From: a virus | DNA length: 38,943 nucleotides | IMG/VR virus record: IMGVR_UViG_3300034190_001847 | Location: 1-38,943 of that record | Reading direction: 5' to 3' (one strand) | Part shown: piece after piece, positions 9,368 through 38,199 of the stretch | How the letters are laid out: each line of letters starts with the position of its first letter | Position numbering within the stretch: position 1 is the first letter of the stretch | Notes under the pieces: model-generated | The model's database searches: none | The model's input: only the letters and a program-made list of their open reading frames with translations | What the model was told of the DNA's origin: nothing | Made by a program: the position numbers and the translations under genes

Positions 9368-12300
9368 TTATGACAATGCGTAGAAGTTCGGTTCTGCTTC
9401 TTGTCCGAATGTCATTGATTTTTGCTGCTCAATTTGCTGCAGCACGTCTGCCATTGGGCGCTCTGCGGTTTGTGAGCCTTCTGGTGTCGTTATGTTGTAA
9501 CGAACAGACATTGAGTTTGGATCTAGACCGTTTGCCTCAAGTATCTTTTGATAAATAGGCTGGCCGGCAATCTCTCTCAAAATCTGCCAGTAAAGCTGGC
9601 GCATAAGTTCGCCATTTTTAGCATGCACAGCAAACGCATCGTGTGTGTGCATAAAGCCTGTTGCTCCGTTGGCACGAAGACGTTTTGCAAGTTCACGTTG
9701 AACGTAAGCATCCAAAGAGTGGTTCAAAAACGCAGCAAAGCCAGTAATAGCTTTCTTGTCTTCAAACACAGGAACAGCAATGTTCTTGTCTTTCTCAATG
9801 CTCCATTTAACACGCTTCTTTGCGCTGTCCGGTAATTTGCCTGTGTAGACAGCAACGTCTCCGTCTGGAAGAGGAACACGCACAGCAAACATATCTTGCC
9901 CTTGCATGTTGTACATTGTGCTAGCAATTGACTTTGCGACACCCTCTGCCATCGCAGCGCCTGGGAACCGTGTGTCGAACTGCAACTCAAGATCGTTCTG
10001 AATTTGCTTCAAACTGTCTTTAATTTGCTGCGGCCATTGGCCACCCTCGTCACGCTCGGCATATGCAGGCACTGACTTTGCTATCTCATCTGCACCAGAT
10101 TTGAGTGCTGTGAGCTTAACTTGGCCATAACTGCGCCGATTACTGATGAATTTCTTAGTAATTTTGCGCGTTTTAGTTTGTGGCAAGTCAAGTGCACGCT
10201 GAAGATACTCGGCACCAGGGCGATATAAATCACCACCTGGGCCATCTGGGTCCATTGGTCCAATGTTAGTTTCTTGGGCCAAATTGGCGTCGCCAGTAAG
10301 CACCGCGTGTAGCTGGTATGAAGATGATGTTCCGTCAAACCAAACAGGATAGCTTGATCTAAAGTCAGACAAAGCCTGTTGAGACTCTGGCATCATAAAG
10401 AGTTCGCTTGATGGGATCTTTTTAGCGCCTGGTATAATGTTTTCCAGATAAGATCTCATGCGCCCAAGTTCGATAGCTGCACGTTGGATTTCAAAGCCAT
10501 GGTCAGCAACGTCAAACAATGCGTGGTTCTTTTGATAGAGTGTTGTTCCACTTTGCTTGTCAAGAAACAGCTTCGGCGTGCCTCCGCGTGTGTGGCTAAA
10601 GACATAGCTACCGTCTTGACCATAGGCATTTACCAAATAGTCAATAAGAGGCATGTCTAGATCTGACTGCGGAATAGCATCGCTAGCTGGGCGACCAGCA
10701 AGCTGCATATATTGTCCTACAGTGCCAAACAAAAAGCCAACACGCTCATTGTACGGAAGTTCATTTGAAATACCGAAATGATCACGCATGCTGTGAAGCA
10801 TTTGCTCAAAGCCAGACTCGCCAAGTGGTTCCCAATTAGGAAACTCCCAAATAGCTTTACCTGCTTTGCCTTGGTACGACGCTGAGCCGTTTAAGGTGTC
10901 AACACGAAGTCTATCTTGTGCACGCCGCTTCATGAACAGCGGTGTCATTCCACCATTTTCACCTTGGTTGTCTTTATATTGTTTTAAGGCTTCTGCTGCA
11001 GCCAGCGTGTAAGCGCTGTCTGTAGTTCCGTCTTTTTTGTATATAAGATCAAGTCCACGATGTATTTGTGGTGTTGACTGCATCTTGTCCATCATCTCGT
11101 AAATTTTGTCGTTGATTACGAGAGCTTGTTTTTGTTCGCGATCAATGAACGCTTCCGTGTTGTCATAGTTGCCAAACGGATGGCCATTGATTTCAATCTT
11201 GCCGTCCCAATGGGTTGGCTTAGCTCTGTTCTCAAATTTACGGACGTTGTTTAACTCGGCTTTAGCTTCTAATGCTGGCAGCTTAGGCACAAGCATGTGC
11301 ACAGGATACATGCGACCACCGGCTGACGTTCTAAAGGCAAGGCCAAAGTCGCCAATAACACCAGCTTTTTGAAGCGCCTTAAGTAGCACTAAAAAGTCGT
11401 TGCGGTGCTGGGAAACAACTTCATCGATGTCAGCGTCTGGATCTTTGTTAACAATGCCTTGATCGTTCATTACACCAATTGCACGAAGATAATCTGCTGC
11501 GACCATACCAAGGTCAGTGTTTGGTGTGACACGCGACAAAGTCTTTTTAAGGACTTCTGGTGAAACACTTGGAAGACCAAGGTTATTTGCAATGTTGGTC
11601 ATTGCTTCATCATATTGACTATTGATTGTCGGAGCGATGGTCTTGGCGTTTTTGGCTAGCTCTTGAATTTTATCAAGTGCTGCTAGACGCTTTGCGACCA
11701 TGGGTCCGCCAGGCTTGTCCTTCTTTGCGTAGGCAATATCAGGGACATATAGATCAGCGTAATGCTCATTGATCTGACGTTGGTGCGCCTTGCCTGTGTA
11801 AACGTCATCAAGGATGTTATTTACATTGGTAAAGCCGTTACCGTCAATTAGCTGCTTGAAGGCTTCGATAAGATCTTTGATGCGCGACAAGATGTACTTT
11901 ACACGACCCATGTTTTCGCCGCGTGCTTCTTGAAGTCTAGCTGCAGTTTCAGCAAGTCCTTCAAGCATTTTGGCAGAGGTATTTAGGTCAGGATAAAGTT
12001 CTTCGACCTCAGCCATTACGTCTTTGTAAGTAGGGTGAGATTGAATAATGCTCATTTCTTCTGGTGTAAGACGATTTTCAACTGCGTGAAAAATCTCATG
12101 TAAGACTTTGCGCTTGTCGCCGTTTGAAGTCAGAGTAATGAGCTCTTGGCGTCGGTAGTAAGCATCGTCGCTTGCGTTAAACTGAACTTTAAAGCCATTG
12201 CCTAGTGCGTCAGCTACAAGCTGAGCGCGCTGCGCATCTGTAATTTTATTGCCAGCTTTGTGAAGCGAGCGAGATCTGAAAATGTCAGCTCTGTCAAGCG

Positions 12301-15172
12301 CAGTCGGTGATACAACATATTCGTTGATAGTTGTGCCAAACGGAGTTTTGTACGGCTCGGTTTTGATGAGCTTGTTGCGCTTAAGTTGCTCAAAGATTTT
12401 TTCAGGCCACATCATTGTGATGCGTCCATTGTCTTTAAGGTTTAATGTTGTCTGTGCAAACTTATCGGCGTCAGCAGGGTCGACTGCTGCAAAGACAGAT
12501 GGAGTCGAAAAGCCACTTGCGTCAATAGCTGAAGCAGAGCTTTTGCTTGTACCGTGGTTTAATACAACCATGCGGTCGCCATATAGCTCTTGACCTGCGT
12601 CCATTTCTTCTTGAATTATATCACTGCCTGGCACACCAAAACGAGACTCTTGCTTTTTCTCAACTGGCCCAAACTCTACGAGTGGGGCGACAACGTTGAG
12701 CAAATAGTCTTTGTGTTCTGGGTTATTAGCTAGTGCTTCTTCAAGTTGAGCTTGCTTAAGAGCTTTTGTGCGTGCGTTAGCAACTTTGTTGGCAAGCTGC
12801 GCAAGTTCTGGAGTGGGAGCATTGTCCACAGCCACTTGAGCTGTTCGCATAGCATTGTCAACAGTTGCTTGATAAGCGATAGGATTTCCGATACCGCCAC
12901 GCGCAAAGTTTGCCGCCATGCTATTAGGTTGCAGCATTTGGTTCTGATTAGGCGAGGCATCTTGTGAATTCCTTTTAACAAATATATCAATGTTGGCAGT
13001 AGCTTGGCGTTTTAGCTGCCTTGCGTTGTTGTAGTCTTTATTTTCAGGCAAGGCTGCTTCTAATTTTTTAGCTTCTTCAAGTGTAATTTCGTTGCGTTCT
13101 AAACGTGCGTCGATCTCTGCGGCTGCTGCATCTTTTGCTTTGCGCGCATCGTTAACAAAAAGATCAAATCCTTTTTCGATATCAATTAATTCGTCTAATT
13201 GTGCATTATACTCGTTTAGTGTAAGTGGAACTGCGTTAGAAACTTCCATCCCGAGCTCTTTTGCTCGGCCTACTATTGCGTCTTGTAGATTATAAAATTC
13301 ACGTGATTGTTCACCGACACGAGAACCTGTTTTAAGGCTTTCTTCGTAGCTCTTAATTGTCGGGGCTAAATCTGGTCTGCTGCGCTTAAGGCTTCTCAAT
13401 GCAACTGCTGTTTGCTGGCGATTAAGCCCAGTGCGCTGGCGCATTGCAGCTTCAGCACCACCTACAGAGTCATAGCCTGCTTTTAGATTAGCTATGTTCT
13501 GCTGCTGTAGGTTAGCAGCTTGAGTGGCTTTAGCGCGCGTCAGGGCTTCAGATTGGGCTGTAGCGGCAGCTTCATTTTGCTGCACTTGGCCTTGGCCTGA
13601 AGTGTCAATGCCTGCGCGGTTTGAATATTTGTTAATTGCCTTGTTAACACGGTTGCGAGAGCCTGTGGCAGCGTCAATTAAACGACCACCAACTGAAGCA
13701 GCAATAGTTCCGCCTGATGTGTAAGCAGCGAGTGCTGATGCACCTGTAGCTTGCATACCGCCTACACCGCGACCAAAAGTGCCTGACTTTTTCAAGCCTT
13801 CGATAGGGTTGAGCAAATCGGTAAATTGGCTAACACCACCTTTGACACCTTTTTGTGTAAAGCGGGTGATAACGTTGAGTTTACGTGCTAATGCTCCAAG
13901 CTCTGGGTCGACTTGGCTTAGGTAATCAATATCTGCGTTAGAGGCTTCGTTCTTAGCGCGGTTCTTTGCACGGCGCTCTGCTGTCGCAAAGTCTGCAGAT
14001 GAGGTGTCAATGCCTGCGCTTTGAGCGCGGCGCTTAGCCTCATCGAACTGCTTCATATAGGCTGTGTGAAGATCACGAAGAGTTGCGTCGGCGTCATCAA
14101 GGCTTTTGGTAGGGTTTCGATCATTGAACTGGCTTGACAGCTGCACAACATCGCGAGAGACATCAGCAAGAGCTTCTTTGTCACCGCCGTGGATAGCTTT
14201 GAGACCATCCATGTTTTCTGCGGCATTTGAGGCAGCCTTTGCTGTTTCAGATATTGTAGTGCCACTACCTCTGATAGCACCACCGGCTGCAAAGCCTGCA
14301 GCACCAGCTTCTTTCAAACGAGTGCCAATTTCACCGTCTGCAAAGTCTTTACCAGCTATTGCTTCAGTGCCAATTTTTACAGTTTCTTGTGCTGCTTCTG
14401 TCAGACCCTCGGTGGCGGCGCCAGCCGTAAAAGCTGCAGCAATACGACCCATGCCGCGCTTGTTGAGCAAATCGGCAACTTGCTTGACACCCATTTTGCC
14501 AAGAACTTCTTTAGGAATTCCTTTTAATACAACACCTGCACCTAAGTTTTCTAACAGCGTCATAATGGTGCCGCCGGCAGTTGCAAGGCGTACTCTTTCG
14601 TCGAGTGATAGCCCTTCGATGCTTTTTAAGCCTTCGTTGACTTCACCAGACATAATGAGAGGTGTGGCAATAGCTGGTGCAGCAATAGACGGAATCATTG
14701 CCGGAGCAGACTCAGCTACTTTTTGACCTGCGTAAGTAAGTGCTGACCCAAGCCCTGTCACATCATCTGTGGTAAGTGACCTGTAATTAAGATCGCCTGC
14801 TTGTTGGTTTAATGCATCAGCTTGAGCACGGTTGTTGGCTTCGTATTGAGCATTTACTTGGTCAGTGTTGATAGGATCAAAGCCAAAAAACTCGCGTACA
14901 GGATTACCAATATTTTCTCTACCGAAACGCGTAAAATCACCGAGCAGGCCATCGTCCATTGCTTGGTTTGCGTCGGCTGCGTAGTTGAGAGTGTTTGCGC
15001 GTGTAGTTAAATCGCCGTATTCAAATGCAGTACCGTAGGATGTGTCACCTTGTGGTTGAGAGGGTTGAGCCTGAAAGTTCTTAATTTCCTGCACAAGTGC
15101 TCGCGCAGCATTAGTGTCTCCAGCGCGGTCAGCATTAACTAACGCGCGCTCGAGCTCCTGCATTGTTGGCAT
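9368..15172 (-). CDS. Giant virion protein with N4-like virion RNA polymerase domain
   Basis: A 1934-aa protein, ATG at 15172 after GGAGCCGAGC. Residues 1-850: helical, with Ala/Gly hydrophobic stretches near 157-175, 200-220 and 475-500, typical of ejected internal proteins. Residues ~868-960: an ADP-ribosyltransferase-like segment (V-V-L-N-H-G-T-S, then G-F-S, then D-A-D-K-F-A). Residues 1025-1029: HEIFH, with Glu1071 or Glu1075 as a possible third metal ligand. Residues ~1160-1934: single-subunit RNA polymerase signatures, namely G-G-R-M-Y-P (R1287), motif A F-D-G-T-S-S-S-Y-Q-L-H (D1613), motif B K-x7-Y-G (K1674, Y1682, G1683) and motif C T-H-D-A-F (D1845). In T7 RNA polymerase the equivalents are D537, K631, Y639 and D812. 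I infer a polymerase packaged in the virion and injected with the DNA. The gap between R1287 and D1613 is much longer than in T7, so an insertion is present. Confidence 0.8.
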   Translation of the reverse strand: MPTMQELERALVNADRAGDTNAARALVQEIKNFQAQPSQPQGDTSYGTAFEYGDLTTRANTLNYAADANQAMDDGLLGDFTRFGRENIGNPVREFFGFDPINTDQVNAQYEANNRAQADALNQQAGDLNYRSLTTDDVTGLGSALTYAGQKVAESAPAMIPSIAAPAIATPLIMSGEVNEGLKSIEGLSLDERVRLATAGGTIMTLLENLGAGVVLKGIPKEVLGKMGVKQVADLLNKRGMGRIAAAFTAGAATEGLTEAAQETVKIGTEAIAGKDFADGEIGTRLKEAGAAGFAAGGAIRGSGTTISETAKAASNAAENMDGLKAIHGGDKEALADVSRDVVQLSSQFNDRNPTKSLDDADATLRDLHTAYMKQFDEAKRRAQSAGIDTSSADFATAERRAKNRAKNEASNADIDYLSQVDPELGALARKLNVITRFTQKGVKGGVSQFTDLLNPIEGLKKSGTFGRGVGGMQATGASALAAYTSGGTIAASVGGRLIDAATGSRNRVNKAINKYSNRAGIDTSGQGQVQQNEAAATAQSEALTRAKATQAANLQQQNIANLKAGYDSVGGAEAAMRQRTGLNRQQTAVALRSLKRSRPDLAPTIKSYEESLKTGSRVGEQSREFYNLQDAIVGRAKELGMEVSNAVPLTLNEYNAQLDELIDIEKGFDLFVNDARKAKDAAAAEIDARLERNEITLEEAKKLEAALPENKDYNNARQLKRQATANIDIFVKRNSQDASPNQNQMLQPNSMAANFARGGIGNPIAYQATVDNAMRTAQVAVDNAPTPELAQLANKVANARTKALKQAQLEEALANNPEHKDYLLNVVAPLVEFGPVEKKQESRFGVPGSDIIQEEMDAGQELYGDRMVVLNHGTSKSSASAIDASGFSTPSVFAAVDPADADKFAQTTLNLKDNGRITMMWPEKIFEQLKRNKLIKTEPYKTPFGTTINEYVVSPTALDRADIFRSRSLHKAGNKITDAQRAQLVADALGNGFKVQFNASDDAYYRRQELITLTSNGDKRKVLHEIFHAVENRLTPEEMSIIQSHPTYKDVMAEVEELYPDLNTSAKMLEGLAETAARLQEARGENMGRVKYILSRIKDLIEAFKQLIDGNGFTNVNNILDDVYTGKAHQRQINEHYADLYVPDIAYAKKDKPGGPMVAKRLAALDKIQELAKNAKTIAPTINSQYDEAMTNIANNLGLPSVSPEVLKKTLSRVTPNTDLGMVAADYLRAIGVMNDQGIVNKDPDADIDEVVSQHRNDFLVLLKALQKAGVIGDFGLAFRTSAGGRMYPVHMLVPKLPALEAKAELNNVRKFENRAKPTHWDGKIEINGHPFGNYDNTEAFIDREQKQALVINDKIYEMMDKMQSTPQIHRGLDLIYKKDGTTDSAYTLAAAEALKQYKDNQGENGGMTPLFMKRRAQDRLRVDTLNGSASYQGKAGKAIWEFPNWEPLGESGFEQMLHSMRDHFGISNELPYNERVGFLFGTVGQYMQLAGRPASDAIPQSDLDMPLIDYLVNAYGQDGSYVFSHTRGGTPKLFLDKQSGTTLYQKNHALFDVADHGFEIQRAAIELGRMRSYLENIIPGAKKIPSSELFMMPESQQALSDFRSSYPVWFDGTSSSYQLHAVLTGDANLAQETNIGPMDPDGPGGDLYRPGAEYLQRALDLPQTKTRKITKKFISNRRSYGQVKLTALKSGADEIAKSVPAYAERDEGGQWPQQIKDSLKQIQNDLELQFDTRFPGAAMAEGVAKSIASTMYNMQGQDMFAVRVPLPDGDVAVYTGKLPDSAKKRVKWSIEKDKNIAVPVFEDKKAITGFAAFLNHSLDAYVQRELAKRLRANGATGFMHTHDAFAVHAKNGELMRQLYWQILREIAGQPIYQKILEANGLDPNSMSVRYNITTPEGSQTAERPMADVLQQIEQQKSMTFGQEAEPNFYALS

Positions 15173-15194: not shown

Positions 15195-16427
15195 TTATTG
15201 GGTGTTATACTTCTCAAAGGCTGCAACACCTTCGCTCGTTGAAAGCTGAGGAGCGCCGTTGCCTGCGCCGCCTGACATATCACCACCGTTTTGCGCAAAG
15301 ATTTGACGCACTTGATTTTCCATTGCCGCAAGACCTTGCTCCATTTGCGGGTTGTAGCCTGCAATTGAGCCGTTGTTGCTGTTGTAGTAATCAAGTTTGT
15401 TTTGTTGTGCTTTCACGTAGGCTTCAGCAAGCATAGCTGCAGCTTGAAGACGCTTAGAGTTTGTCTTTGGATCAAGCTGAGGGTTATAAGCACGTTGAAT
15501 AAGCAACATGCCTTCTCGCTGTGTAAATTGAGCACCAAGAGTTTCGCGCAAGTTCTTTTGAATGACCCCTGCAACAAGCTCTTGGGTGTCAAGACTTTCA
15601 GAGTCGACAAGCGCACGTAGTCCCATATCGCCGTCGCGATCAACCAAGCGAGCTGCAGATTTAAATGGGTTCATCCAAGAAAGACCTGTGTTGCCTTCAC
15701 CTGGCTCTTGTGTTGCAAGACCGTCTGCAATCATACGAAGCATGCCGATGTTGCCAGAAGAGGCAGTTGGATTGAACTTTTCAATGTTCTTACCGAACTC
15801 TTTGTCCCGAGCCCTTTCAGCTTCACTCAAAACACGATTGACACCAGGATTAATTGTGTTTTTGCCTGTCTGTGCTGGGTTTTTAGCGGCTTTAAAGGCT
15901 GCAATTTGTGCTGGCGTGTACTGATCAGTGACATCTTCTAAAGCACCAGTATTTGGGTTGCGCTGCATAACGCGACCAGTCTGATTGTCACCAACCCATT
16001 CAGCTTTACCGACATTATTCTGGTTTATAAGCTGAGAATTGCGGTAATTAGCAATATCTGCGCTTTGGTTAGACAGAGCTTGACTTTCAAGCTGCCCAGG
16101 CAATTTCTGGTTTGCGATGTCCATATTCTGCTGGGTGTTTTGCATGCCTAGCTCAGTTTGGCGGCGATTGAGATCATCAATGCGGCTTTGGCGCTGATCT
16201 TGCTGGCGCTGCCTAAAGCGGTTGCGAATACCATCTTGATAGTCTTGGATGCTTCCGCTTACGTCGTCACCTTTGAAAGCGCGACCTAAAAGCTGCAATT
16301 TCATGCCAGTGTCCATTTGGCGTGGATCAGTCATGCGGGTCATCATTTGGTCGTATGTAGGTGGTCCCATAGTATTTTGCTGCTGGCTGAGAGCACCACT
16401 CGTATTAAAAAAATCAAAGAGACCCAT
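15195..16427 (-). CDS. Internal virion protein, Gln-rich
   Basis: A 410-aa protein starting M-G-L-F-D-F-F. The ATG at 16427 follows GGAGGTGTGC; nine codons of open frame upstream lack a site and are excluded. Residues ~75-150 are a Gln/Asn/Arg-rich coiled region. Residues ~270-370 hold a conserved-looking block (Q-K-N-L-R-E-T-L-G-A-Q-F-T then R-A-Y-N-P-Q-L), which I recall from structural proteins of many phages. It overlaps the preceding gene by 14 bases and lies just before the 1934-aa protein. It may be an inner-core or ejection protein that travels with the polymerase protein. No enzymatic motif seen. Confidence 0.65.
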   Translation of the reverse strand: MGLFDFFNTSGALSQQQNTMGPPTYDQMMTRMTDPRQMDTGMKLQLLGRAFKGDDVSGSIQDYQDGIRNRFRQRQQDQRQSRIDDLNRRQTELGMQNTQQNMDIANQKLPGQLESQALSNQSADIANYRNSQLINQNNVGKAEWVGDNQTGRVMQRNPNTGALEDVTDQYTPAQIAAFKAAKNPAQTGKNTINPGVNRVLSEAERARDKEFGKNIEKFNPTASSGNIGMLRMIADGLATQEPGEGNTGLSWMNPFKSAARLVDRDGDMGLRALVDSESLDTQELVAGVIQKNLRETLGAQFTQREGMLLIQRAYNPQLDPKTNSKRLQAAAMLAEAYVKAQQNKLDYYNSNNGSIAGYNPQMEQGLAAMENQVRQIFAQNGGDMSGGAGNGAPQLSTSEGVAAFEKYNTQ

Positions 16428-17583
16428 GCACACCTCCATATTTACGAACAACACGGTCCATAAAGTGCTTTACGAGGCGCTTGGCTTTAGGCTTGTCTGC
16501 AATGAAGCGCGCAAAAGACGCACCATAAGTAGCGTAGAGCTTGAAGAACCAACGAGGGCTGTGAGCAAACATCCAGTGGCGGAAGATAAGCCAGCTGTGG
16601 TTATGTTGCCCGTAGACTTCGCGGGCTACCCAGCAAAATAGCGACATGCCTGTGCCAAGAATGTTAGCTACAGTGCCTATTTTGTCTGCGCCTGATGGGC
16701 CAGTTTGAGCGCCTGAGTATCCTGCACTGCCATTAAAACTAGCTAATGGGTTAAATAAGCCCATGTAGTTGCTGGCAAGCTGAAAAGGACGATCTTGCGC
16801 CATATAATATTGGTTGGCAGCATCGTCCATTGCACCTTGGTTGTATTGGTTCATGAAGTTGCCTGCGCCAGACATCATGCCTAGAGCGCTGTTGCCAAGA
16901 TTGAAGCCGTTTAGCATGTTTCCGGCAGCACTTGCATTTGCGCCTTGAAGCATACCAAGTGCGTTGGCTTGTTGACCTATGTTTGTGTTGTATTGGCCGA
17001 CACCTTGGTTAAACATGTCTTGTCGCACTTGTGCACCAATGTCTGCAATGCGGTCTCCGGCAAGGCCAGTCATTGTGCCTTCCATCATGCCAGCGCGGAT
17101 GCTGTTAGTGTTGCCGCCACCTACGGCAGTTCTATCGAGCTGGGCTAAGTTTGAGCCAAGGTTTCGTGTAATGTCGCGGCTAGAGGCGTCAATAATATTT
17201 TGGGCCATAGGCGAATTAGCTAGGCTGTTGCCCATACCAAAAGCGCCGTTAGGGTTGCTAAGCATGTTGGTAAAATTAGCGATCTGATTACCGTAGCCAG
17301 AGGTCGCGTTGTAGTTGTTTGCTGCACCAGTGCCTAAAGCGTTGGCGTTGCCCATTTGATTGCCCGCAAAATTACCAGCTTGGTTGTAATATTGCTGCTG
17401 CATTGGGTCGAGACCAGCGTAGGTTTGGCCACCGTAAGTAGGGTTAGCCATCATATTGCCAATTTGGCCGCCTAAATAGCTGCTAATTGGGTTCAACGCA
17501 TTCATATAAGCGTCGAAACCTTGTTGTTGAAGCGGATCTACAGCTTGTGTGACCTTGGTTTTGCCTTTAAAAAAGCTACCCAT
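16414..17583 (-). CDS. Gly/Asn/Met-rich internal virion protein
   Basis: A 389-aa protein. Residues 1-310 are very rich in Gly, Asn, Ala, Met and Gln, with low-complexity, amphipathic character. Residues ~317-385 form a distinct module starting C-W-V-A-R-E-V-Y-G and continuing W-L-I-F-R-H-W-M...R-W-F-F-K-L-Y...Y-G...M-D-R-V-V-R. That C-W-V-A-R-E-V-Y-G/F-R-W module recurs at the C-terminus of many phage internal or tail-tip proteins. The composition suits a membrane-inserting ejection protein. The C-terminal coding end overlaps the next start by 14 bases. Function inferred from composition and position. Confidence 0.65.
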   Translation of the reverse strand: MGSFFKGKTKVTQAVDPLQQQGFDAYMNALNPISSYLGGQIGNMMANPTYGGQTYAGLDPMQQQYYNQAGNFAGNQMGNANALGTGAANNYNATSGYGNQIANFTNMLSNPNGAFGMGNSLANSPMAQNIIDASSRDITRNLGSNLAQLDRTAVGGGNTNSIRAGMMEGTMTGLAGDRIADIGAQVRQDMFNQGVGQYNTNIGQQANALGMLQGANASAAGNMLNGFNLGNSALGMMSGAGNFMNQYNQGAMDDAANQYYMAQDRPFQLASNYMGLFNPLASFNGSAGYSGAQTGPSGADKIGTVANILGTGMSLFCWVAREVYGQHNHSWLIFRHWMFAHSPRWFFKLYATYGASFARFIADKPKAKRLVKHFMDRVVRKYGGVHGSL

Positions 17584-18046: not shown

Positions 18047-19699
18047 TTAACGTTCCGAATAGACGGATAGATCGAAGTCAGCGGCACTAAATGAAAAATA
18101 CTCGCCTGATAGCTCTTCAATTCTGTAAGCAAGAAGTCTGCCTGCAGCTTTGCTGTCGATCTTGTGGTCTATGTTTGGCACAAAATTGTAGTTTGTGACG
18201 TAAGTTGGACTATCGTCGTAAGGAAGGTCAGTAAAACCTAATTTGACTGTGACTGGAGCTGCGCCAGAAACGGTGATTATCTGCGGTATCATTGACACAA
18301 CTTGCTTGTAAGAGCGCAGAGGTGCCTGAGTTTCGTCAAGATCTAAGCCTCGGCGTTCGACAAAAGCAGGTTTTAGTGTTTCTGTGTTTGCTACTGTGTT
18401 TAACAAGCCAGTGACTAAAAGATCATTAGCGTAAACTCGACCTGCTGTGATTGAGTTTGTGTCATCTCTAGCACTTACAAAAACTGATATTCGAGGACTT
18501 GTGTCTTGATAGCTGTTGTAAGGGTTTGCTGTAGCAGCATAACTTGCAGTTTGCGTTGCGTAAGAAGTGGCACTCAATGAGATGTTACTTTGACCGGCAC
18601 CAACAACGTTTGGCAGATCAACAAAAGACCAAGTTTTAGACTTCAAATTGTAAACTGCAGCACGGTTGCAATAATGTGTGCCAGGAAAGCCAATGTTTGA
18701 CTCATCTGACACGTAGCAGAAATAGACCAAGTCATTGATCTCATCGAGATGCACAAAGAACTTGTGTTTGTCTTCACGGCGAAGCTCGCGGTAAATGCGC
18801 TCTTTGACGCGACCTACCGCAATAGACTCCATAGTAATGCCATTGTGCATATAGATGTCTGTGTCACCAAAGACATAATGCTCTTTACCGGTGCTTACTG
18901 CGCAGTTTTGGCTTATCATACCATCGCGGTCGTAGAACTTACGGAACGAGAATACGAACTCAGAGCCAGTGTACTCCATGATGGCAGTTTCAGTTGTGGA
19001 GTAAATTATGAAAGCGTTGTTAAGAGGTAAACCATCTACAATAGGTGTTTTAAAGTTTGCAAGAATAGTTGCACCAGCGCTATTAGCAGCTGAAGGTGTC
19101 CAGACGACGCCGCTTGCTGGGTTAGCGCGGTACTGAACGACGTCAGTCCATTTGACCATGGTGTCGTAGACTATGCCGCTTTGAGTAACATTCAGCGCAA
19201 TAATGAAGTCCTTGAAACCTCTCATTGCGACAGCTCTGTCAGCTGAAGGCCAATCGCCTACAGACATCAAGCTGTAGTCCAGGGCTGACACATGGTCTCT
19301 GATATACGGCTCGGTTGTTTTGCGGCACAATACAGATAGTCCTGCAACCTCTGTGTGGACAAAAGGTGCGTCGTCAGAGCCTGACGTAATAGCGCCTGAA
19401 GGAGTTACATTGTCAGCGACACCATCGATATAACTTGTAACAGTATTATCGGTGTGTGCGACACATACCACGGCACCATCGTCAGGGTTGTTGTATGTAA
19501 AAGCACCGGCTAAGCCTGTGTGCTGTGCGTTTTGAGCTGTCTGATTAAACAGATCTTTAAGCACTGGAGCTCGCATAACACGGTTGTCGTTAAAGATGAC
19601 GTTTGAACCATCGTTGAATGTGTTTGGTGGCAGGTCGTTTGGGTCGATGTCAGCAACGACACCATATTGGCCTACGTTTCGAAGTGGCATATTGGCCAT
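18047..19699 (-). CDS. Tail nozzle/knob-like structural protein
   Basis: A 550-aa protein with almost wholly beta-strand character. The N-terminus contains G-Q-Y-G-V-V-A-D-I-D-P-N-D-L-P-P-N-T-F-N-D-G-S-N-V-I-F, and about residues 60-420 have repeated short-strand units with conserved aromatics, which suggests a beta-propeller. Such proteins form the distal tail knob or nozzle in SU10/phiEco32-like and roseophage podoviruses. ATG at 19699 follows AGGAGGCGTCGT. Tail fibre genes lie directly upstream. The precise structural position is inferred. Confidence 0.65.
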   Translation of the reverse strand: MANMPLRNVGQYGVVADIDPNDLPPNTFNDGSNVIFNDNRVMRAPVLKDLFNQTAQNAQHTGLAGAFTYNNPDDGAVVCVAHTDNTVTSYIDGVADNVTPSGAITSGSDDAPFVHTEVAGLSVLCRKTTEPYIRDHVSALDYSLMSVGDWPSADRAVAMRGFKDFIIALNVTQSGIVYDTMVKWTDVVQYRANPASGVVWTPSAANSAGATILANFKTPIVDGLPLNNAFIIYSTTETAIMEYTGSEFVFSFRKFYDRDGMISQNCAVSTGKEHYVFGDTDIYMHNGITMESIAVGRVKERIYRELRREDKHKFFVHLDEINDLVYFCYVSDESNIGFPGTHYCNRAAVYNLKSKTWSFVDLPNVVGAGQSNISLSATSYATQTASYAATANPYNSYQDTSPRISVFVSARDDTNSITAGRVYANDLLVTGLLNTVANTETLKPAFVERRGLDLDETQAPLRSYKQVVSMIPQIITVSGAAPVTVKLGFTDLPYDDSPTYVTNYNFVPNIDHKIDSKAAGRLLAYRIEELSGEYFSFSAADFDLSVYSER

Positions 19700-20978: not shown

Positions 20979-21059
20979 GTTGGGGACTCCATAGGTTTGT
21001 TGGGGCGCAAATCAAGCAGGAACCCCTAACAACAACAACTCCCGACTTTTTCGAAATGC

Positions 21060-21073
21060 TCTAATGATAATCG
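21060..21073 (+). repeat. 14-bp direct repeat, copy 1
   Basis: TCTAATGATAATCG, identical to the copy at 21165-21178, 105 bp apart centre to centre and followed in both cases by a T-rich run. Position in the divergent region suggests an operator or activator site. It is not palindromic. Confidence 0.7.
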
Positions 21074-21234: not shown

Positions 21235-21263
21235 GAACGCAAATTTATAAGCTTTATGGACAA
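21235..21263 (+). promoter_or_regulatory. Phage RNA polymerase promoter P1
   Basis: First of five plus-strand copies of an ACGC-N14-TATGGACAA element. ACGC is at 21237-21240 and TATGGAC at 21255-21261. The invariant end (TTTAT then GGAC) parallels the T7 pattern TATA then GGGA, so initiation at G21258 is likely. It lies upstream of a GGAG site and the first cassette gene. Confidence 0.75.
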
Positions 21264-21282
21264 ACGACATTGGAGAATTGTA

Positions 21283-21525
21283 ATGACATTCGACATTTTA
21301 AAGAACATGATGATCAACAAAAATGATGAGTATTATGTTGAAATCGAAACACAATTTTTGACTGATGAGTCGATTGAAGACACAAAGTATTATGATATTC
21401 GTGTTGAAACAAAAGACAGTTCGACATCACTTATTTGTGGTGACATCACGAATTTGAGTGAATACATTATCGACTTTGATCTTGGTGATGTGATTGAAGA
21501 AAATGGTTTCGACTCAAGAAATTAA
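21283..21525 (+). CDS. Cassette 1: small acidic protein
   Basis: An 80-aa protein starting M-T-F-D-I-L-K. The frame is open upstream to an ATG inside the promoter, but that ATG would precede the transcription start. The ATG at 21283 follows GGAG at a proper distance. About 20 of 80 residues are Asp/Glu against 6 Lys/Arg, so the protein is strongly negative. There are no cysteine clusters or membrane segments, and I recognise no family. Its charge and accessory position suggest a protein- or DNA-mimic inhibitor of a host system, but this is inference. A terminator overlaps the stop codon. Confidence 0.7.
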   Translation: MTFDILKNMMINKNDEYYVEIETQFLTDESIEDTKYYDIRVETKDSSTSLICGDITNLSEYIIDFDLGDVIEENGFDSRN

Positions 21526-21550
21526 GACGCTTAATTGCGTCTTTTTTTTT
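21524..21550 (+). terminator. Cassette 1 rho-independent terminator
   Basis: AAGACGC pairs with GCGTCTT around a six-base TTAATT loop, followed by a run of about nine T. The stem starts inside the stop codon of the preceding gene. Confidence 0.88.
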
Positions 21551-21561
21551 CGTTAAAGTTC

Positions 21562-21590
21562 GAACGCAAATTTTGACGCTTTATGGACAA
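21562..21590 (+). promoter_or_regulatory. Phage RNA polymerase promoter P2
   Basis: Second copy of ACGC-N14-TATGGACAA (ACGC 21564-21567, TATGGAC 21582-21588, predicted start G21585). Only 11 bases separate it from the preceding terminator, so the cassette is transcribed independently. Confidence 0.8.
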
Positions 21591-21608
21591 CAACACATGG
21601 AGCGAATT

Positions 21609-22076
21609 ATGCCAAAATTTATCGAAGTTCGTAATGACGTATTTGCAACTGGTTCAGTCGCTTGTGACTTCAAAGATCTTCGCGAATTTTATCGTGAAAA
21701 TATTGAAGACATGATCAAAGCATTTGATGAGTGCAAAAAGATCTTCAAAGTTGACGATGTCAAAATGTTCGTAAGAAATTTACGTACAGCAAAAGGTCAT
21801 TATCAACATTCAGCAAAAGAAATCGCAATTGATATTCGTGATCGTGATTTAAAAGCTGTCGTTTCAACAATCATTCATGAAATGACACATGCACAACAAT
21901 ACGCGACAAAAAAGTTGACGCAAAAAGGTGCAAACATGGTGTTTCAATCGAAAGAATTCAAACCAGTAAATGGTCGAAAAGATTTCGAAGCATACCAAAA
22001 TCAACCATGGGAAATCGAAGCGAGAAATAACGAGTCGAAATATATCGACAAAGTTATGAAAGCAATTGCGAAATGA
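21609..22076 (+). CDS. Cassette 2: small HExxH metallopeptidase-like protein
   Basis: A 155-aa protein starting M-P-K-F-I-E-V-R. ATG at 21609 follows ATGGAG; upstream in-frame ATGs lie in the promoter or form part of the ribosome site. Residues 88-97 read I-I-H-E-M-T-H-A-Q-Q, a zincin HExxH motif (H90, E91, H94). About 40 residues later comes Q-P-W-E-I-E-A (E135, E137), which supplies a third ligand in small gluzincin-type enzymes. The N-terminal half is mixed alpha/beta. It could cleave a host or phage regulatory protein after infection; no substrate can be named. No signal peptide, so it acts in the cytoplasm. Confidence 0.72.
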   Translation: MPKFIEVRNDVFATGSVACDFKDLREFYRENIEDMIKAFDECKKIFKVDDVKMFVRNLRTAKGHYQHSAKEIAIDIRDRDLKAVVSTIIHEMTHAQQYATKKLTQKGANMVFQSKEFKPVNGRKDFEAYQNQPWEIEARNNESKYIDKVMKAIAK

Positions 22077-22082
22077 AAATGA

Positions 22083-22118
22083 GAGTGAGATGACGAAAGT
22101 CGTCTCGCTCTTTTTTTT
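22083..22118 (+). terminator. Cassette 2 rho-independent terminator
   Basis: A 12-bp stem (22083-22094 with 22099-22110, two G-U pairs) capped by a GAAA tetraloop and followed by eight T. Confidence 0.92.
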
Positions 22119-22171
22119 ATCGAAAACGAACAAAAAACGCAGCAATCAGTTTATAAATCAATTTAGTTTTT

Positions 22172-22200
22172 AGACGCAAATTTCATGTCTTTATGGACAA
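22172..22200 (+). promoter_or_regulatory. Phage RNA polymerase promoter P3
   Basis: Third copy of the element (ACGC 22174-22177, TATGGAC 22192-22198, predicted start G22195). The leader continues AACTAAAGGAG into the ribosome site of a three-gene cassette. Confidence 0.82.
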
Positions 22201-22215
22201 CTAAAGGAGTTTGCG

Positions 22216-22305
22216 ATGTCAAAATTACAAGCAGTAATTGAGTTTGTTTGTGTGTCGATTATATTTATGTCGATGATGTTGTTTCTCGCGTTATGGAGTA
22301 TGTGA
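22216..22305 (+). CDS. Cassette 3a: 29-aa membrane peptide
   Basis: ATG at 22216 follows AAGGAG. The peptide is M-S-K-L-Q-A-V-I-E-F-V then a hydrophobic stretch to the C-terminus (V-C-V-S-I-I-F-M-S-M-M-L-F-L-A-L-W), so it is essentially one transmembrane helix. Its stop overlaps the next start (ATG sharing the A of TGA). Tiny single-pass phage peptides often block a host membrane function or aid superinfection exclusion. Function here is unknown. Confidence 0.6.
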   Translation: MSKLQAVIEFVCVSIIFMSMMLFLALWSM

Positions 22306-22544
22306 TGCTTACGTTCAAATTTGTAGAATCAAATGATCCACTTGTCGAAGACGATCAATATGAGTGTGTCGAACATTCACAATTTAGCATTCAATGTTTG
22401 ACGTATCCAATCGGTGCAGATCGTTTTGTAGTCAATGAATATGAATATAAAAACGACGAACTGCAAAGTGTAAGAGAACACGGCAGTTTTGTTTATCTTA
22501 AATCTGCGAAAGACAAAATAACGGAGTTAGCAAATGGAATTTAA
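22305..22544 (+). CDS. Cassette 3b: small acidic protein
   Basis: A 79-aa protein starting M-L-T-F-K-F-V-E-S-N-D at 22305, overlapping the previous stop by one base. I chose this start because the longer frame would run through the membrane peptide in another phase. The sequence is acidic, with short beta strands and two cysteines (Y-E-C-V-E-H and I-Q-C-L-T). No family recognised. Confidence 0.6.
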   Translation: MLTFKFVESNDPLVEDDQYECVEHSQFSIQCLTYPIGADRFVVNEYEYKNDELQSVREHGSFVYLKSAKDKITELANGI

Positions 22545-22671
22545 TTCAGCTGAAATCGAAAAATTGTACGAACTCGTAACAGATTTATTTTATGATTACG
22601 ATCGTATGTCGTCTGATGGCAAAAAAACGTTAGACAAACTTGCTGATCTTCTCAAAATACCAACCGACTAA
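22534..22671 (+). CDS. Cassette 3c: 45-aa helical protein
   Basis: ATG at 22534 is preceded by CGGAG and overlaps the end of the previous gene by 11 bases. The peptide (M-E-F-N-S-A-E-I-E-K-L-Y-E-L-V) is amphipathic and helical throughout. It ends 4 bases before the cassette terminator. No family recognised. Confidence 0.6.
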   Translation: MEFNSAEIEKLYELVTDLFYDYDRMSSDGKKTLDKLADLLKIPTD

Positions 22672-22675
22672 ATAT

Positions 22676-22698
22676 GAGCGCTTCGGCGCTCTTTTTTT
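22676..22698 (+). terminator. Cassette 3 rho-independent terminator
   Basis: GAGCGC and GCGCTC enclose a TTCG tetraloop, followed by seven T. A near-perfect intrinsic terminator. Confidence 0.95.
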
Positions 22699-22708
22699 CG
22701 TTTAATTC

Positions 22709-22738
22709 AGACGCATTTTTCATCTCTTTATGGACAAC
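22709..22738 (+). promoter_or_regulatory. Phage RNA polymerase promoter P4
   Basis: Fourth copy (ACGC 22711-22714, TATGGAC 22729-22735, predicted start G22732), starting 11 bases after the previous terminator. The A-rich block after ACGC is ATTTTT here rather than AAATTT. Confidence 0.82.
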
Positions 22739-22752
22739 ACAAGGAGATGCGA

Positions 22753-23187
22753 ATGTCTTTTATTTGTAATTTCGAAAATCGTCATACTCATAACTATAGG
22801 TTCAGCGTGTATACAAAAGACGATCCAGATTTGCTGCATTTAAAAATGCTAGTTGCTGCACATAATAAACGTATTCGTGACTATGCAAAACGGTTCAACA
22901 AAATGCCCAAACGTGATGGAGCATTTGGTGAACTAAAACGCGTTGCATTGATGGCACGTGGACCTCGTCAAGTAAACGGTGTTCCGTTACACCCAAACGC
23001 AGTTACATCGTTGCGTCATGAATACGCAGTTTATTTTGATGTTTATATTGCTTCTAGTTCAGAAAACGATTTGCTGCAAAGGCAGATCGAAACTGGTTTA
23101 ACGAGATCAGAACTGAAAAAGTATGACACGTTAACGTATGAAGCCATGAAACTCAGATGGCAAGGCAAGCGAAGACTTGCTGCATAA
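22753..23187 (+). CDS. Cassette 4: basic protein of unknown function
   Basis: A 144-aa protein starting M-S-F-I-C-N-F. ATG at 22753 lies six bases after AAGGAG; the ATG at 22747 touches the site and is unlikely. About 26 Lys/Arg against 15 Asp/Glu make it basic. A central stretch K-R-V-A-L-M-A-R-G-P-R precedes a beta-like segment Y-A-V-Y-F-D-V-Y-I, and the C-terminus is a Lys/Arg-rich helix. The charge suggests nucleic-acid or ribosome contact. Not recognised. Confidence 0.75.
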   Translation: MSFICNFENRHTHNYRFSVYTKDDPDLLHLKMLVAAHNKRIRDYAKRFNKMPKRDGAFGELKRVALMARGPRQVNGVPLHPNAVTSLRHEYAVYFDVYIASSSENDLLQRQIETGLTRSELKKYDTLTYEAMKLRWQGKRRLAA

Positions 23188-23203
23188 CCTTACGCACAAC
23201 TTA

Positions 23204-23227
23204 CCTCGCTTCGGCGAGGTTTTTTTT
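23204..23227 (+). terminator. Cassette 4 rho-independent terminator
   Basis: CCTCGC and GCGAGG enclose a TTCG tetraloop and are followed by eight T. Confidence 0.95.
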
Positions 23228-23237
23228 CGTCTATTTG

Positions 23238-23266
23238 AGACGCAAATTGCTGCCCCTTATGGACAA
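23238..23266 (+). promoter_or_regulatory. Phage RNA polymerase promoter P5
   Basis: Fifth copy (ACGC 23240-23243, TATGGAC 23258-23264, predicted start G23261). The downstream leader GGACAACACAAGGAG is identical to that of P4. Confidence 0.82.
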
Positions 23267-24295: not shown

Positions 24296-26215
24296 CTAGG
24301 CAATCTCACAGCTGCCAGCGCTGCATGCTAGTTCTTGAGTGCCTGTGGTTTCATCACTATCTTCTATCATTTCATCCCAGTTCAATTCGGCTGGCATGAT
24401 TTCGACAGCTGCATCGTATGCATCTTTGTCACATTCGGTGTACGGAGCTTGTTTGTAAGTTCCACCGTCGTAAGGCAAGAAAGAGATACCACTGATTGCA
24501 TCGAAGTTGTTCCACACCCAAGATCCGACCTGAGGCCACTCATCGTCTTTAACAGACACTGTGATGCTTGGCTTATGCTCGCACCAATGCTCCTGATATG
24601 TCTTCCACAACTCTAAATGCTCGATGGCAGTCATATCGTTGCGTGTTACACAATCATCAGGTGCTTTAACAGGGAACGAGAAGACCGTGGTGTTGTCTGG
24701 CTTCATGACGTCTGGTTCGTTAGGGACACCATTGGCGATCAAGAACTGCGTCAACGGATCTTTGTTATCCCCGCGAACTGTACGGATGTAGTACTTGCTA
24801 TGCCGAGCATGGATACCTGATGCACTGTCGACAAGCTGAGATACTGTTCCAGATGGCTTAACACAGGTAATGGCAGCAGACTGCTCAATGCCGAGCATCC
24901 ATGCCATTTCTTTATTTGCTTCGTTAGCTTCTTCTCTAAGTTGATTTAAGAAGCCAGGCAGCGTGTCCTTCTGGTGTTGTGATTTACCGTAAGTGTGTGG
25001 GTTATCCATGATACCTGTTAACGACACACCTAGCAGTCTTTCGGCTTCAGTGTTCTTCTGCCATATCTTACGAAGATACGGAAAGTGTGTGAAGGTAGAC
25101 TGAATGGTCCCGAGGATACTCGCAACTCTCACCTTTTTCTTGAGGGTACTAGGAGTATCATCTGAGCGTACGACAACCTCTGTAAGATTGCAGAACTGGT
25201 ATGGGCGCAAAATGATCTCGCTGCACGGATTGGTTCCGAAGTCGTGATCGGCGTTTCTTTTGCCATACTTTGCTGCTTGCTTCTGTGAAGCTACTCGGTT
25301 GAATATACCTCTTTCACCGCTGTGGGACTCATACAGCGCAACCCATTCGCGCATAAAAGCGCCTACATCTGGTTTCTCTGTATAGCACACACTATTGTTT
25401 GCGAGTGCTCTTTGAGAATTAAGGTTCCACCATTCGCCTGACTTAGCGTGCCTCATGCGATCGTCAGTCAGGTTAGACAGACTAATCATAGCACTTCGGC
25501 GCACACCTCCGACGACAACAACTTCACCAATCTTACACATAAGGTCATGAGCTTCGATTGAGGACAGCTTACGACCTGCAGCCTGCTTAAACATGTTTAC
25601 AGTAAACTTAAACAAATCTTCAAGCGGCGCTGGTCCTGAAGCTCGACCACCAAACTTCTTTAAGCGTGCACCTGCTGGTCTTACTTGGCTTGTGTCCCAC
25701 TTGGGGATCTCTCCGCTGTACAAAAGGGCGATTACCTGTCTAAAGGCTTTTGCCCAACCTTCTTTGCTGTCTCGTACGACAACAGTAATGTCATTGTCGA
25801 AGAGGGTGTTAGGGATCTCTGGAAGAGAGTTAATATACTGTCGTTCTACTGAGAAGCCTACACCTGTGCCGCACATAAGGATGAACATGGCTTCGTCAAA
25901 GGCTTTGATGTCATCAACGACAACATAAGAGCAGTTATAGCCGCAAGTGTTGTCTCTGGCTAATGCTTCACCTGCTGTCATCATAGCGCGCATAGACGGC
26001 ATAACTGATTTAGACAATATTGCTTCTTCTATTTCTTGTCTAAGAGCGGGAGGTAGAACGACATCATGTTTTTCTTTAATGTGGTCTAAAATGAACGACA
26101 TGTATCTGTCGACAGTCTCATGCCAATGTTCACGACGCTGTTTGTCGTCTAAATATCGTGCATAGCGGGACTTATGGATAAAGTCTTGGTAGAGGTATTG
26201 GTTGCTTAAGGTCAT
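24296..26215 (-). CDS. nrdJ: Class II (B12-dependent) ribonucleoside-triphosphate reductase
   Basis: A 639-aa monomeric reductase that makes deoxynucleotides using adenosylcobalamin. Catalytic residues: C331 and E333 in N-P-C-S-E-I, with redox partner C342 in F-C-N-L-T-E. The spacing of 11 matches C408/C419 of the Lactobacillus enzyme. The N-terminal block holds N-T-C-G-Y-N-C-S-Y (C91, C95) and M-C-G-T-G-V-G-F-S-V-E. The C-terminal shuttle pair is C631/C636 in C-S-A-G-S-C-E-I, again with the family spacing of five. It is shorter than the ~740-aa bacterial enzyme, as usual in phages. It supplies dNTPs without oxygen or an R2 subunit. The ribosome site (AAGAG) is weak; the leader holds a 15-bp repeat and a hairpin. 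Phage reductases are common in marine podoviruses. Confidence 0.94.
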   Translation of the reverse strand: MTLSNQYLYQDFIHKSRYARYLDDKQRREHWHETVDRYMSFILDHIKEKHDVVLPPALRQEIEEAILSKSVMPSMRAMMTAGEALARDNTCGYNCSYVVVDDIKAFDEAMFILMCGTGVGFSVERQYINSLPEIPNTLFDNDITVVVRDSKEGWAKAFRQVIALLYSGEIPKWDTSQVRPAGARLKKFGGRASGPAPLEDLFKFTVNMFKQAAGRKLSSIEAHDLMCKIGEVVVVGGVRRSAMISLSNLTDDRMRHAKSGEWWNLNSQRALANNSVCYTEKPDVGAFMREWVALYESHSGERGIFNRVASQKQAAKYGKRNADHDFGTNPCSEIILRPYQFCNLTEVVVRSDDTPSTLKKKVRVASILGTIQSTFTHFPYLRKIWQKNTEAERLLGVSLTGIMDNPHTYGKSQHQKDTLPGFLNQLREEANEANKEMAWMLGIEQSAAITCVKPSGTVSQLVDSASGIHARHSKYYIRTVRGDNKDPLTQFLIANGVPNEPDVMKPDNTTVFSFPVKAPDDCVTRNDMTAIEHLELWKTYQEHWCEHKPSITVSVKDDEWPQVGSWVWNNFDAISGISFLPYDGGTYKQAPYTECDKDAYDAAVEIMPAELNWDEMIEDSDETTGTQELACSAGSCEIA

Positions 26216-26300: not shown

Positions 26301-26306
26301 TTCTAA

Positions 26307-26321
26307 AGTGCGGCTTCTTAA
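26307..26321 (-). repeat. 15-bp repeat shared by nrdJ and RNA polymerase leaders, copy 1
   Basis: TTAAGAAGCCGCACT on the minus strand, identical to 36564-36550. This copy lies 92 bases before the reductase start, immediately downstream of the terminator of the predicted small RNA. Confidence 0.65.
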
Positions 26322-36520: not shown

Positions 36521-36535
36521 TGCACCTCCTTTAAA

Positions 36536-36553
36536 CACTAATCTGCTTTAGTG
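36536..36553 (-). promoter_or_regulatory. Hairpin at RNA polymerase ribosome site
   Basis: CACTAA and TTAGTG pair around a six-base loop, ending four bases before the TTTAAAGGAGG ribosome site region. It overlaps the 15-bp repeat. It could tune translation of the polymerase. Confidence 0.45.
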
Positions 36554-36564
36554 CGGCTTCTTAA
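36550..36564 (-). repeat. 15-bp repeat shared by RNA polymerase and nrdJ leaders, copy 2
   Basis: TTAAGAAGCCGCACT on the minus strand, exact match to 26321-26307, placed 30 bases before the RNA polymerase start. Confidence 0.65.
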
Positions 36565-37185: not shown

Positions 37186-37291
37186 AATCTCGTGATTTGC
37201 AGCTGGATAGAGCACTAGACTACGAATCTAGGGGTCGGGAGTTCGAATCTTCCCGAGCGCGCCATTCTTGCACTGCTTTAATCACGAGATT
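37186..37291. repeat. 12-bp inverted repeat flanking the attP candidate
   Basis: AATCTCGTGATT at 37186-37197 and its exact reverse complement at 37280-37291 enclose the tRNA-derived segment with 82 bases between them. The right arm is four bases from the integrase stop. They are good candidates for integrase or excisionase arm sites, or for a long stem bracketing the tRNA-like sequence. Confidence 0.75.
37200..37264 (+). other. attP candidate: 3' part of a tRNA-Arg(ACG) gene
   Basis: From CAGCTGG to CCA the sequence matches the D-loop, anticodon arm (loop CTACGAA, anticodon ACG), variable loop, T-arm (GGGAG-TTCGAAT-CTTCC), 3' acceptor strand CGAGCGC, discriminator G and CCA of a tRNA-Arg. 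The 5' acceptor strand and 5' D-stem, expected as GCGCTCG then TAGCTC, are not present. It is therefore not a complete tRNA gene. A tRNA 3' segment directly downstream of a tyrosine integrase is the classic attP core; integration would rebuild the host tRNA gene. The exact crossover cannot be fixed without the host sequence. Confidence 0.82.
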
Positions 37292-38120: not shown

Positions 38121-38141
38121 TGTTTTACTCCTTCTAAATTG

Positions 38142-38171
38142 AAAAAACACCGGTCCGTGATTGGACCAGTG
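38142..38171 (-). terminator. Terminator between endolysin and integrase
   Basis: On the minus strand CACTGGTCC pairs with GGACCGGTG (one G-U) around AATCAC, then six T. It isolates the integrase gene from late lysis transcription. Confidence 0.9.
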
Positions 38172-38199
38172 CATTAGATGGTAAAAATTGCGTCTGAAG

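Follow-up and report, generated by a model that had tools for sequence, protein, structure and literature searches.

In phages N4 and DEV the third ejection protein of a three-gene operon is the virion RNA polymerase (vRNAP; PMC12633501), the literature describes single-chain virion RNA polymerases as confined to N4-like phages (PMC5512222; PMC12633501), and the survey of Iyer et al. (2017) recorded virion RNA polymerases only in N4-like phages and prophages (PMC5512222). The vRNAPs of the N4 type have lengths of 2842-3820 aa and are defined by means of the motif ExDGxxxG (PMC10654107), and fusion with zincin-like peptidases has been noted for them (PMC5512222). Besides its vRNAP, gp50, which has about 3500 aa and carries the polymerase in its middle, N4 has the enzyme RNAPII, whose large subunit is gp16 (RNAP2). 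RNAPII is a soluble two-subunit enzyme of the middle genes and is not packaged. The T7 RNA polymerase (RNAP) is not packaged either, and the T7 gp16 and P22 ejection proteins are without polymerase, the entry of T7 DNA relying on the host RNA polymerase.

The locus described here lies in a virus record of 38,943 bases, analysed over its whole length (the window), and consists of a minus-strand ORF at 9368-15172 encoding 1934 aa, with its ATG at 15172 and its stop codon at 9368-9370. The initial annotation of this DNA had delimited a real ORF, leaving unstated that it is on the minus strand. Its product, referred to as the giant protein, resembles N4 gp50 and the vRNAPs of Schitoviridae in being a giant late-operon protein encoded by the third of three ejection-type genes and in joining an RNAP to a long N-terminal part and a HEXXH zincin-like motif, and the phage, like N4-like phages, encodes a further single-subunit RNAP. 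It differs from them in its shorter chain, in having the polymerase at the extreme C-terminus, in motif A (DGTSSS as against ExDGVTNG in N4 vRNAP) and motif C (THDAF as against FDG), and in its background, a phage of about 39-42 kb with a T7-type RNAP, an integrase and a LUZ24/phiEco32-type head. Regarding the large subunit of N4 RNAPII, motif A (YPxxxDxTSSxxQLxAxLTGD) and motif C (HDxF) are nearly identical in form, whereas the polymerase is here part of one chain inside an ejection protein. The T7-type RNAPs (Autographiviridae), including the one encoded by the same phage, share the predicted fold and the order of motifs but form a clade separate from the giant RNAP, and the T7 gp16 and P22 ejection proteins are similar in being the last of three. 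Polyvalent proteins (PMC5512222) are large injected multidomain proteins with which the giant protein, itself presumably injected, shares a zincin-like motif, a possible ADP-ribosyltransferase (ART)-like motif and an RNAP. The features of the giant protein are as follows.

9368-15172, minus strand: ejection-type giant protein with C-terminal RNA polymerase, 1934 aa, 211 kDa, last of three consecutive ejection-type genes
12545-12556, minus strand: HGTS, residues 873-876, possible ART-like motif, without profile support
12077-12100, minus strand: HEIFHAVE, residues 1025-1032, HEXXH zincin-like metallopeptidase motif, assigned at motif level
9371-11635, minus strand: single-subunit RNAP domain, residues 1180-1934 (AlphaFold2, Foldseek, hhalign)
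11303-11320, minus strand: GGRMYP, residues 1285-1290, named in the initial annotation, R1287 not conserved
10904-10915, minus strand: DRLR, residues 1420-1423, proposed counterpart of T7 DxxGR, D1420 and R1423 invariant
10289-10351, minus strand: motif A, residues 1608-1628 (YPVWFDGTSSSYQLHAVLTGD), catalytic D1613, aligns with GYPVALDATSSGLQILACLTGD of N4 RNAPII
10124-10168, minus strand: motif B, residues 1669-1683 (RKITKKFISNRRSYG), K1670, K1673, Y1682 and G1683 invariant
9710-9724, minus strand: NHSLD, residues 1817-1821, counterpart of T7 VHSQD (H784 region), aligned by hhalign
9629-9655, minus strand: motif C, residues 1840-1848 (FMHTHDAFA), with the catalytic H1844-D1845, unchanged in all 18 relatives

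The RNA polymerase domain

The presence of a C-terminal single-subunit RNAP, which had been proposed from the sequence at the outset, was borne out by profile searches, by AlphaFold and Foldseek and by the conservation of motifs A, B and C. The Pfam profile RNA_pol matches the giant protein (3.8e-8, 33 bits, cut-off 22) as well as seven of seven relatives scanned, PHROG RNA polymerase profiles match it at 1e-9, and a profile of the giant-protein family searched against the PDB matches yeast mitochondrial RNAP (4.9e-5) and N4 RNAP2 (4e-4) with motifs A and C in register; given these matches and those of Foldseek, a chance origin of the motifs was rejected. Residues 1180-1934 were modelled with AlphaFold without templates, using only 26 diverse rows of the family as input (pLDDT 76.7, pTM 0.72), while an earlier run with the shallower alignment of 10 close relatives had given a pLDDT of 50 and no match in the PDB. 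The initial annotation had suggested a structural check of this kind, and the model matches yeast and human mitochondrial RNAP (mtRNAP) and T7 RNAP: all 50 of the PDB matches listed by Foldseek are mitochondrial or T7 RNAPs (E 1.9e-12 to 6e-9, about 1e-11 for T7 RNAP), and motif C forms a strand-turn-strand. Among viral models the top matches are phage RNA polymerases, with Schitoviridae vRNAPs lower (5.6e-8 and weaker). The model is also matched by the BFVD entry A0A7S5FRK7, an unnamed viral protein (E 2.5e-11, TMq 0.51), whose length of 1463 aa suggests another fused RNAP.

The motifs named in the initial annotation are all found at the residues given there (GGRMYP at 1285, FDGTSSSYQ at 1612, KKFISNRRSYG at 1673 and THDAF at 1843), and the order of motifs is that of single-subunit RNAPs, a D followed by K...YG and then by HD. 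In the 18-row alignment of relatives D1613, K1670, K1673, Y1682, G1683, H1844 and D1845 are invariant, and N1817, H1818 and D1821 of NHSLD are likewise invariant among relatives. Of the motif B residues named at the outset, Y1682 and G1683 are among the invariant ones, whereas K1674 is T in contigs L061 and L062. The arginine R1287 of GGRMYP had been regarded as diagnostic, but among 16 relatives this position is R in eight, V in seven and K in one, and it is therefore not the diagnostic catalytic arginine.

Because R1287 varies, D1420 and R1423 are preferred over GGR1287 as the counterpart of T7 DxxGR. Without gaps, T7 DxxGR...K441-x-LL would correspond to Q1419-D-R-L-R1423...K1439-A-I, a stretch that does not vary within the family, and Q1419-DRLR1423-V...K1439-A-I, together with the block GKAIWEFPNWEPLGESGFEQ that comes after it, keeps the T7-like register. 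This block was aligned by the family profile, weakly and co-linearly, with ARALLEFAQGRPLGPHGLDW of human mtRNAP, and it was also aligned with T7-type RNAP in a suboptimal hhalign hit; GKAIWEFPNWEPLGESG, downstream of DRLR, was aligned with human mtRNAP and with T7-type RNAP. A competing suboptimal hhalign alignment pairs GGRMYP with RGRLYP, and the AlphaFold model is of low to medium confidence between residues ~1380 and 1435. The mapping of residues, made by inspection, is on account of this competing alignment and the low confidence around residue 1420 put forward with reserve, with D1420 and R1423 as the apparently better counterpart.

Lineage, conservation and gene order of the giant protein

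The polymerase had initially been described as N4-like, a description that the profiles do not sustain, since they favour N4 RNAPII and T7-type enzymes. The best hhalign profile match of the giant RNAP was to the large subunits of N4 RNAPII (97.4%, E 1.1e-11), the T7-type RNAPs gave 95.6% (E 1.2e-8), and the vRNAP domain of N4, LIT1 and EE36 (N4 gp50 family) gave 0.2%, no match; six unrelated phage proteins included as controls gave no match. In a control comparison the T7-type and RNAPII profiles each find the N4 vRNAP domain at only about 12%; the N4 vRNAP profile is thus weak, and the lack of a match to it does not by itself count as strong evidence. The motif ExDGxxxG, confirmed in the vRNAPs of N4, LIT1 and EE36, is absent from the giant protein, which has W-F-D-G-T-S-S-S at motif A; motif C reads HTHDAF as against IFDGM in N4-type vRNAPs, and the length of 1934 aa is below the range of 2842-3820 aa of the N4 type. 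In an unrooted tree the giant, T7-type and RNAPII rows are separate, the first two as clades with full support, and the phage's own T7-type RNAP falls inside the T7-type clade, so that the giant RNAP is not a recent duplicate; a derivation from that enzyme by duplication was rejected on the basis of these separate, fully supported clades. Because the tree is unrooted, no sister relationship with RNAPII is claimed. Judged by its sequence, the giant RNAP is outside the N4 virion-RNAP lineage, whose defining sequence characters it lacks, and is of the RNAPII/T7 kind.

In IMG/VR, relatives of the giant protein are encoded by ~33 distinct loci, with 60-100% identity over the C-terminal 335 aa. An assembly artefact was rejected, since open frames of 1599 to 2012 codons are present in many independent contigs. 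A tblastn search with the whole giant protein against 50,697 phage records gave no match, and no cultured phage with the protein was found; none was detected in the species genomes scanned with the RNAP domain, and a degenerate HTHDAFA pattern searched across IMG/VR occurred outside the giant family in chance ORFs only. The giant protein is under purifying selection: dN has its lowest values in the zincin-like region and the RNAP region and its highest in the linker at 540-840 (RNAP region 0.04-0.09 versus linker 0.22-0.26 in the two nearest relatives; in L006, for example, 0.037-0.069 in the zincin-like and RNAP regions versus 0.216 in the linker), although selection ratios are rough because synonymous sites are near saturation.

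Regarding the two motifs upstream of the polymerase, H1025, E1026, H1029 and E1032 of the zincin-like motif are invariant in the relatives, one member of the family matching SprT-like at 1.9e-4, and the HGT of the ART-like motif is invariant where present, the region being missing in the G008/G010 clade; neither region had a solid match in Pfam, PHROGs or the PDB. The relative L008 (6045-12080) carries an additional insertion upstream of the HGTS motif, in which HGT occurs a second time within the stretch YHGTPILSNEVIYTSADPTQAEVYA, as if the HGT region had been duplicated.

The following genes precede that of the giant protein in the structural operon.

15195-16454, minus strand: 419-aa neighbour, putative second ejection-type protein, order conserved, no family match
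16414-17583, minus strand: 389-aa protein, PHROG 'DNA ejection protein' (phrog_4287, 6.3e-11)
18047-19699, minus strand: 550-aa virion structural (tail tube-type) protein, LUZ24/phiEco32-type (phrog_3287, 5.5e-72)

The gene order is tube protein, 98-aa ORF, 389-aa 'DNA ejection protein', 419-aa protein, giant protein, small ORFs, terminase and portal, and around the giant protein it is largely conserved in the four relatives G001, G002, G008 and G010. The portal, tube and major head proteins match LUZ24/phiEco32/7-11-type phages, and a T7-type head and tail module, as in Autographiviridae, was not found in the window. The combination of T7-type replication genes with an SU10-type head, recognised in the initial annotation, is in agreement with this head of the LUZ24/phiEco32(SU10) type, and the view that the RNAP ends an internal virion protein also holds, the giant protein being the last in the ejection-type cluster, before terminase. 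Its place as the last of a three-gene ejection cluster makes ejection with the DNA likely, and, from gene order, the giant protein is likely to be packaged in the virion. The ejection proteins did not match gp41-gp43 of pelagiphage HTVC106P; in the comparison with this phage the tube protein alone gave a match. Phages of marine Roseobacter and SAR11 carry the nearest counterparts of the primase-helicase (about 50-53%). The virus is small and probably marine.

A second polymerase and two promoter-like families

Beyond the structural operon, the features that bear on transcription and on the lifestyle of the phage are as follows.

34025-36538, minus strand: complete 837-aa T7-type RNAP (PF00940, 5.7e-96; phrog_414, 7.8e-203)
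37217-37261, plus strand: attP-like 3' part of a tRNA (ACG anticodon context), flanked by the genes for the integrase and the T7-type RNAP
37296-38255, minus strand: tyrosine integrase (PF00589, 4.8e-23)
36546-36557, minus strand: promoter-like family A with the T3/T7-like core GCCGCACTAAAG, directly before the T7-type RNAP gene, kept there in relatives
26303-26314, minus strand: family A (GCCGCACTTTAG), upstream of the ribonucleotide reductase (RNR) gene, position conserved in relatives
21237-21263, plus strand: family B copy 1 (ACGCAAATTT-N5-CTTTATGGACAA), before an 80-aa ORF
21564-21590, plus strand: family B copy 2, before a 159-aa SprT-like ORF
22174-22200, plus strand: family B copy 3
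22711-22737, plus strand: family B copy 4, before a 146-aa ORF
23240-23266, plus strand: family B copy 5, before a 129-aa ORF

The T7-type RNAP of its own that characterises Autographiviridae is thus present at 34025-36538. It had been missed in the initial annotation, whose account was right about the RNAP ending the giant protein and incomplete in this respect, and the second polymerase changes the biology of that reading. Both polymerases are encoded in the window, G001, G002, G008 and G010; PF00940 was searched for in HTVC106P and not detected.

The integrase gene next to the 3' part of a tRNA points to a temperate lifestyle, and similar tRNA-part copies are present in G002, G008 and G010. 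The 45-base tRNA stretch has exact matches in 31 alphaproteobacterial stretches, many from SAR116/Puniceispirillum and some from Devosia, Emcibacter and Rhizobiaceae, and the exact matches in many SAR116 genomes suggest SAR116 or a related alphaproteobacterium as host. In the SAR116 contig L181 the tRNA 3' stretch occurs twice in direct orientation, at 3946 and 6754; the copies lie 2.8 kb apart and are possibly the ends of an integrated element.

In the relatives checked, family A (GCCGCACTWWAG, with the T3/T7-like CACTWWAG) is found before the genes for the T7-type RNAP and RNR; the RNR (24296-26215, minus strand) has B12-dependent (class II) domain matches in Pfam. Family B comprises five plus-strand copies at 21.2-23.3 kb, located 6-19 bases ahead of start codons in four of them, and in both the window and G001 the five are near-identical 27-base elements directly before ribosome-binding sites, the 12-mer CTTTATGGACAA alone having four exact copies. 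Hits with a score matrix reach 37-41 bits versus at most 11 in shuffled versions of the window, a gap that arises partly by construction because the matrix was built from the same sites. Five copies each are present in G001 and G002 and related, more divergent copies in G008/G010, and intrinsic terminators lie between several family-B units. A conserved hairpin like those of N4 vRNAP promoters was searched for in family B and not found. Most of the small divergent genes at 21237-23266 (plus strand) have a family-B element, and among them the ORF at 21573-22076 is SprT-like or metallopeptidase-like.

A sigma70-like promoter (TTGACA-18-TAAAAT, 11/12) is present upstream of the T7-type RNAP gene of the window, so that host RNAP could set the cascade going even if no virion RNAP were involved. 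All IMG/VR contigs with family B belong to the same phage clade, several of them ending just before the giant protein and L150 and L161 holding its N-terminal part, and because the contigs are all of one clade, co-occurrence cannot assign family B to a polymerase. A family-B-like element with a terminator hairpin immediately after it (GCACTGGTCCAATCACGGACCGGTGTTTTTT) is found at 38167 (minus strand) in the window, at 39490 in G001 and at 28833 in G002; conserved in these three genomes near the start of the integrase gene, it is possibly a small RNA or an attenuator. The conserved block GCATTTCGAAAAAGTCGGG, at about 21020-21070 (minus strand) upstream of the structural operon, is shared by the window, G001 and G002 and may be a late promoter of a third kind.

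Proposed scheme and alternative explanations

The scheme as a whole, considered fairly probable, is that of an active, packaged and ejected RNAP in a probably temperate podovirus, with early transcription from family B followed by transcription from family A. The giant protein would be the third ejection protein, at the inner-membrane end, of a phage with a head and tail of the LUZ24/phiEco32 type, and the polymerase fused at its C-terminus, of the T7/mitochondrial/N4-RNAPII kind, would be active and probably works like the N4 virion RNAP. Packaged and ejected together with the 389- and 419-aa ejection proteins and the DNA, it would begin to transcribe in the cell ahead of the synthesis of any phage protein and may also assist in drawing the genome in. 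In the most economical scheme the ejected RNAP would, by hypothesis, read family B, whose elements precede the small divergent genes between 21.2 and 24.2 kb, and the T7-type RNAP, once synthesised, would then read family A, ahead of its own gene and of the RNR gene.

Rather unlikely is an alternative in which the RNAP is active and packaged with a chiefly mechanical role, non-specific or terminus-proximal transcription pulling the genome in, with the T7-type or the host RNAP reading family B. In T7 the genome is drawn in by host RNAP working as a downstream motor (PMC12633501), and a mechanical role would be consistent with the lack of N4-type hairpins in family B and of an independent link between family B and the giant protein; however, families A and B are clearly different conserved sequences, which fits two specificities better than one, and family B is unlike a sigma70 promoter. 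The location of the gene in the late structural block would also suit an RNAP made late for work in the cell, in late transcription, and not packaged, but this is improbable given that the gene is the last of the ejection-protein cluster, in the same operon position as the vRNAP of N4 and DEV (PMC12633501), and encodes a chain of 1934 aa that includes a zincin-like motif and an extended N-terminal part. That the domain is catalytically dead or vestigial, contributing no more than structure or DNA binding to an ejection protein, is very improbable: the variable R1287, the K1674T replacement in two relatives and the full RNAP that the phage already has would agree with such a role, whereas none of the other catalytic positions varies, even in relatives with as little as about 58% identity, and the catalytic region ranks with the best-conserved parts of the giant protein. 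A genuine N4-type (Schitoviridae) virion RNAP gained by horizontal transfer is scarcely credible, for although the operon position is the same, as is the joining of an ejection N-terminus, a HEXXH motif and an RNAP, and Schitoviridae vRNAP models are among the weaker Foldseek viral matches (E 5.6e-8), the N4 gp50 family gave 0.2% as against strong matches to N4 RNAPII and T7-type enzymes, ExDGxxxG is absent, motif C is THDAF and not FDG, and the order of domains differs, the RNAP being C-terminal rather than in the middle.

The new transcription strategy put forward in the initial annotation is plausible. A tentative extension, for which the case is less than even, is an independent origin of a virion-ejected RNAP from the RNAPII/T7 branch in a small temperate podovirus carrying a T7-type RNAP, with family B as its own early promoter class and a two-polymerase cascade possibly working without host RNA polymerase. 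If true, this would be a second virion RNAP, from another branch and in phages of ~40 kb, and the fusion of RNAP and ejection protein would have evolved more than once; with 1934 aa it would provide a much smaller model for the passage of a polymerase through a phage tail, and it would explain a start of phage transcription independent of the host, the division of labour suggested by the two promoter-like families being directly testable in vitro.
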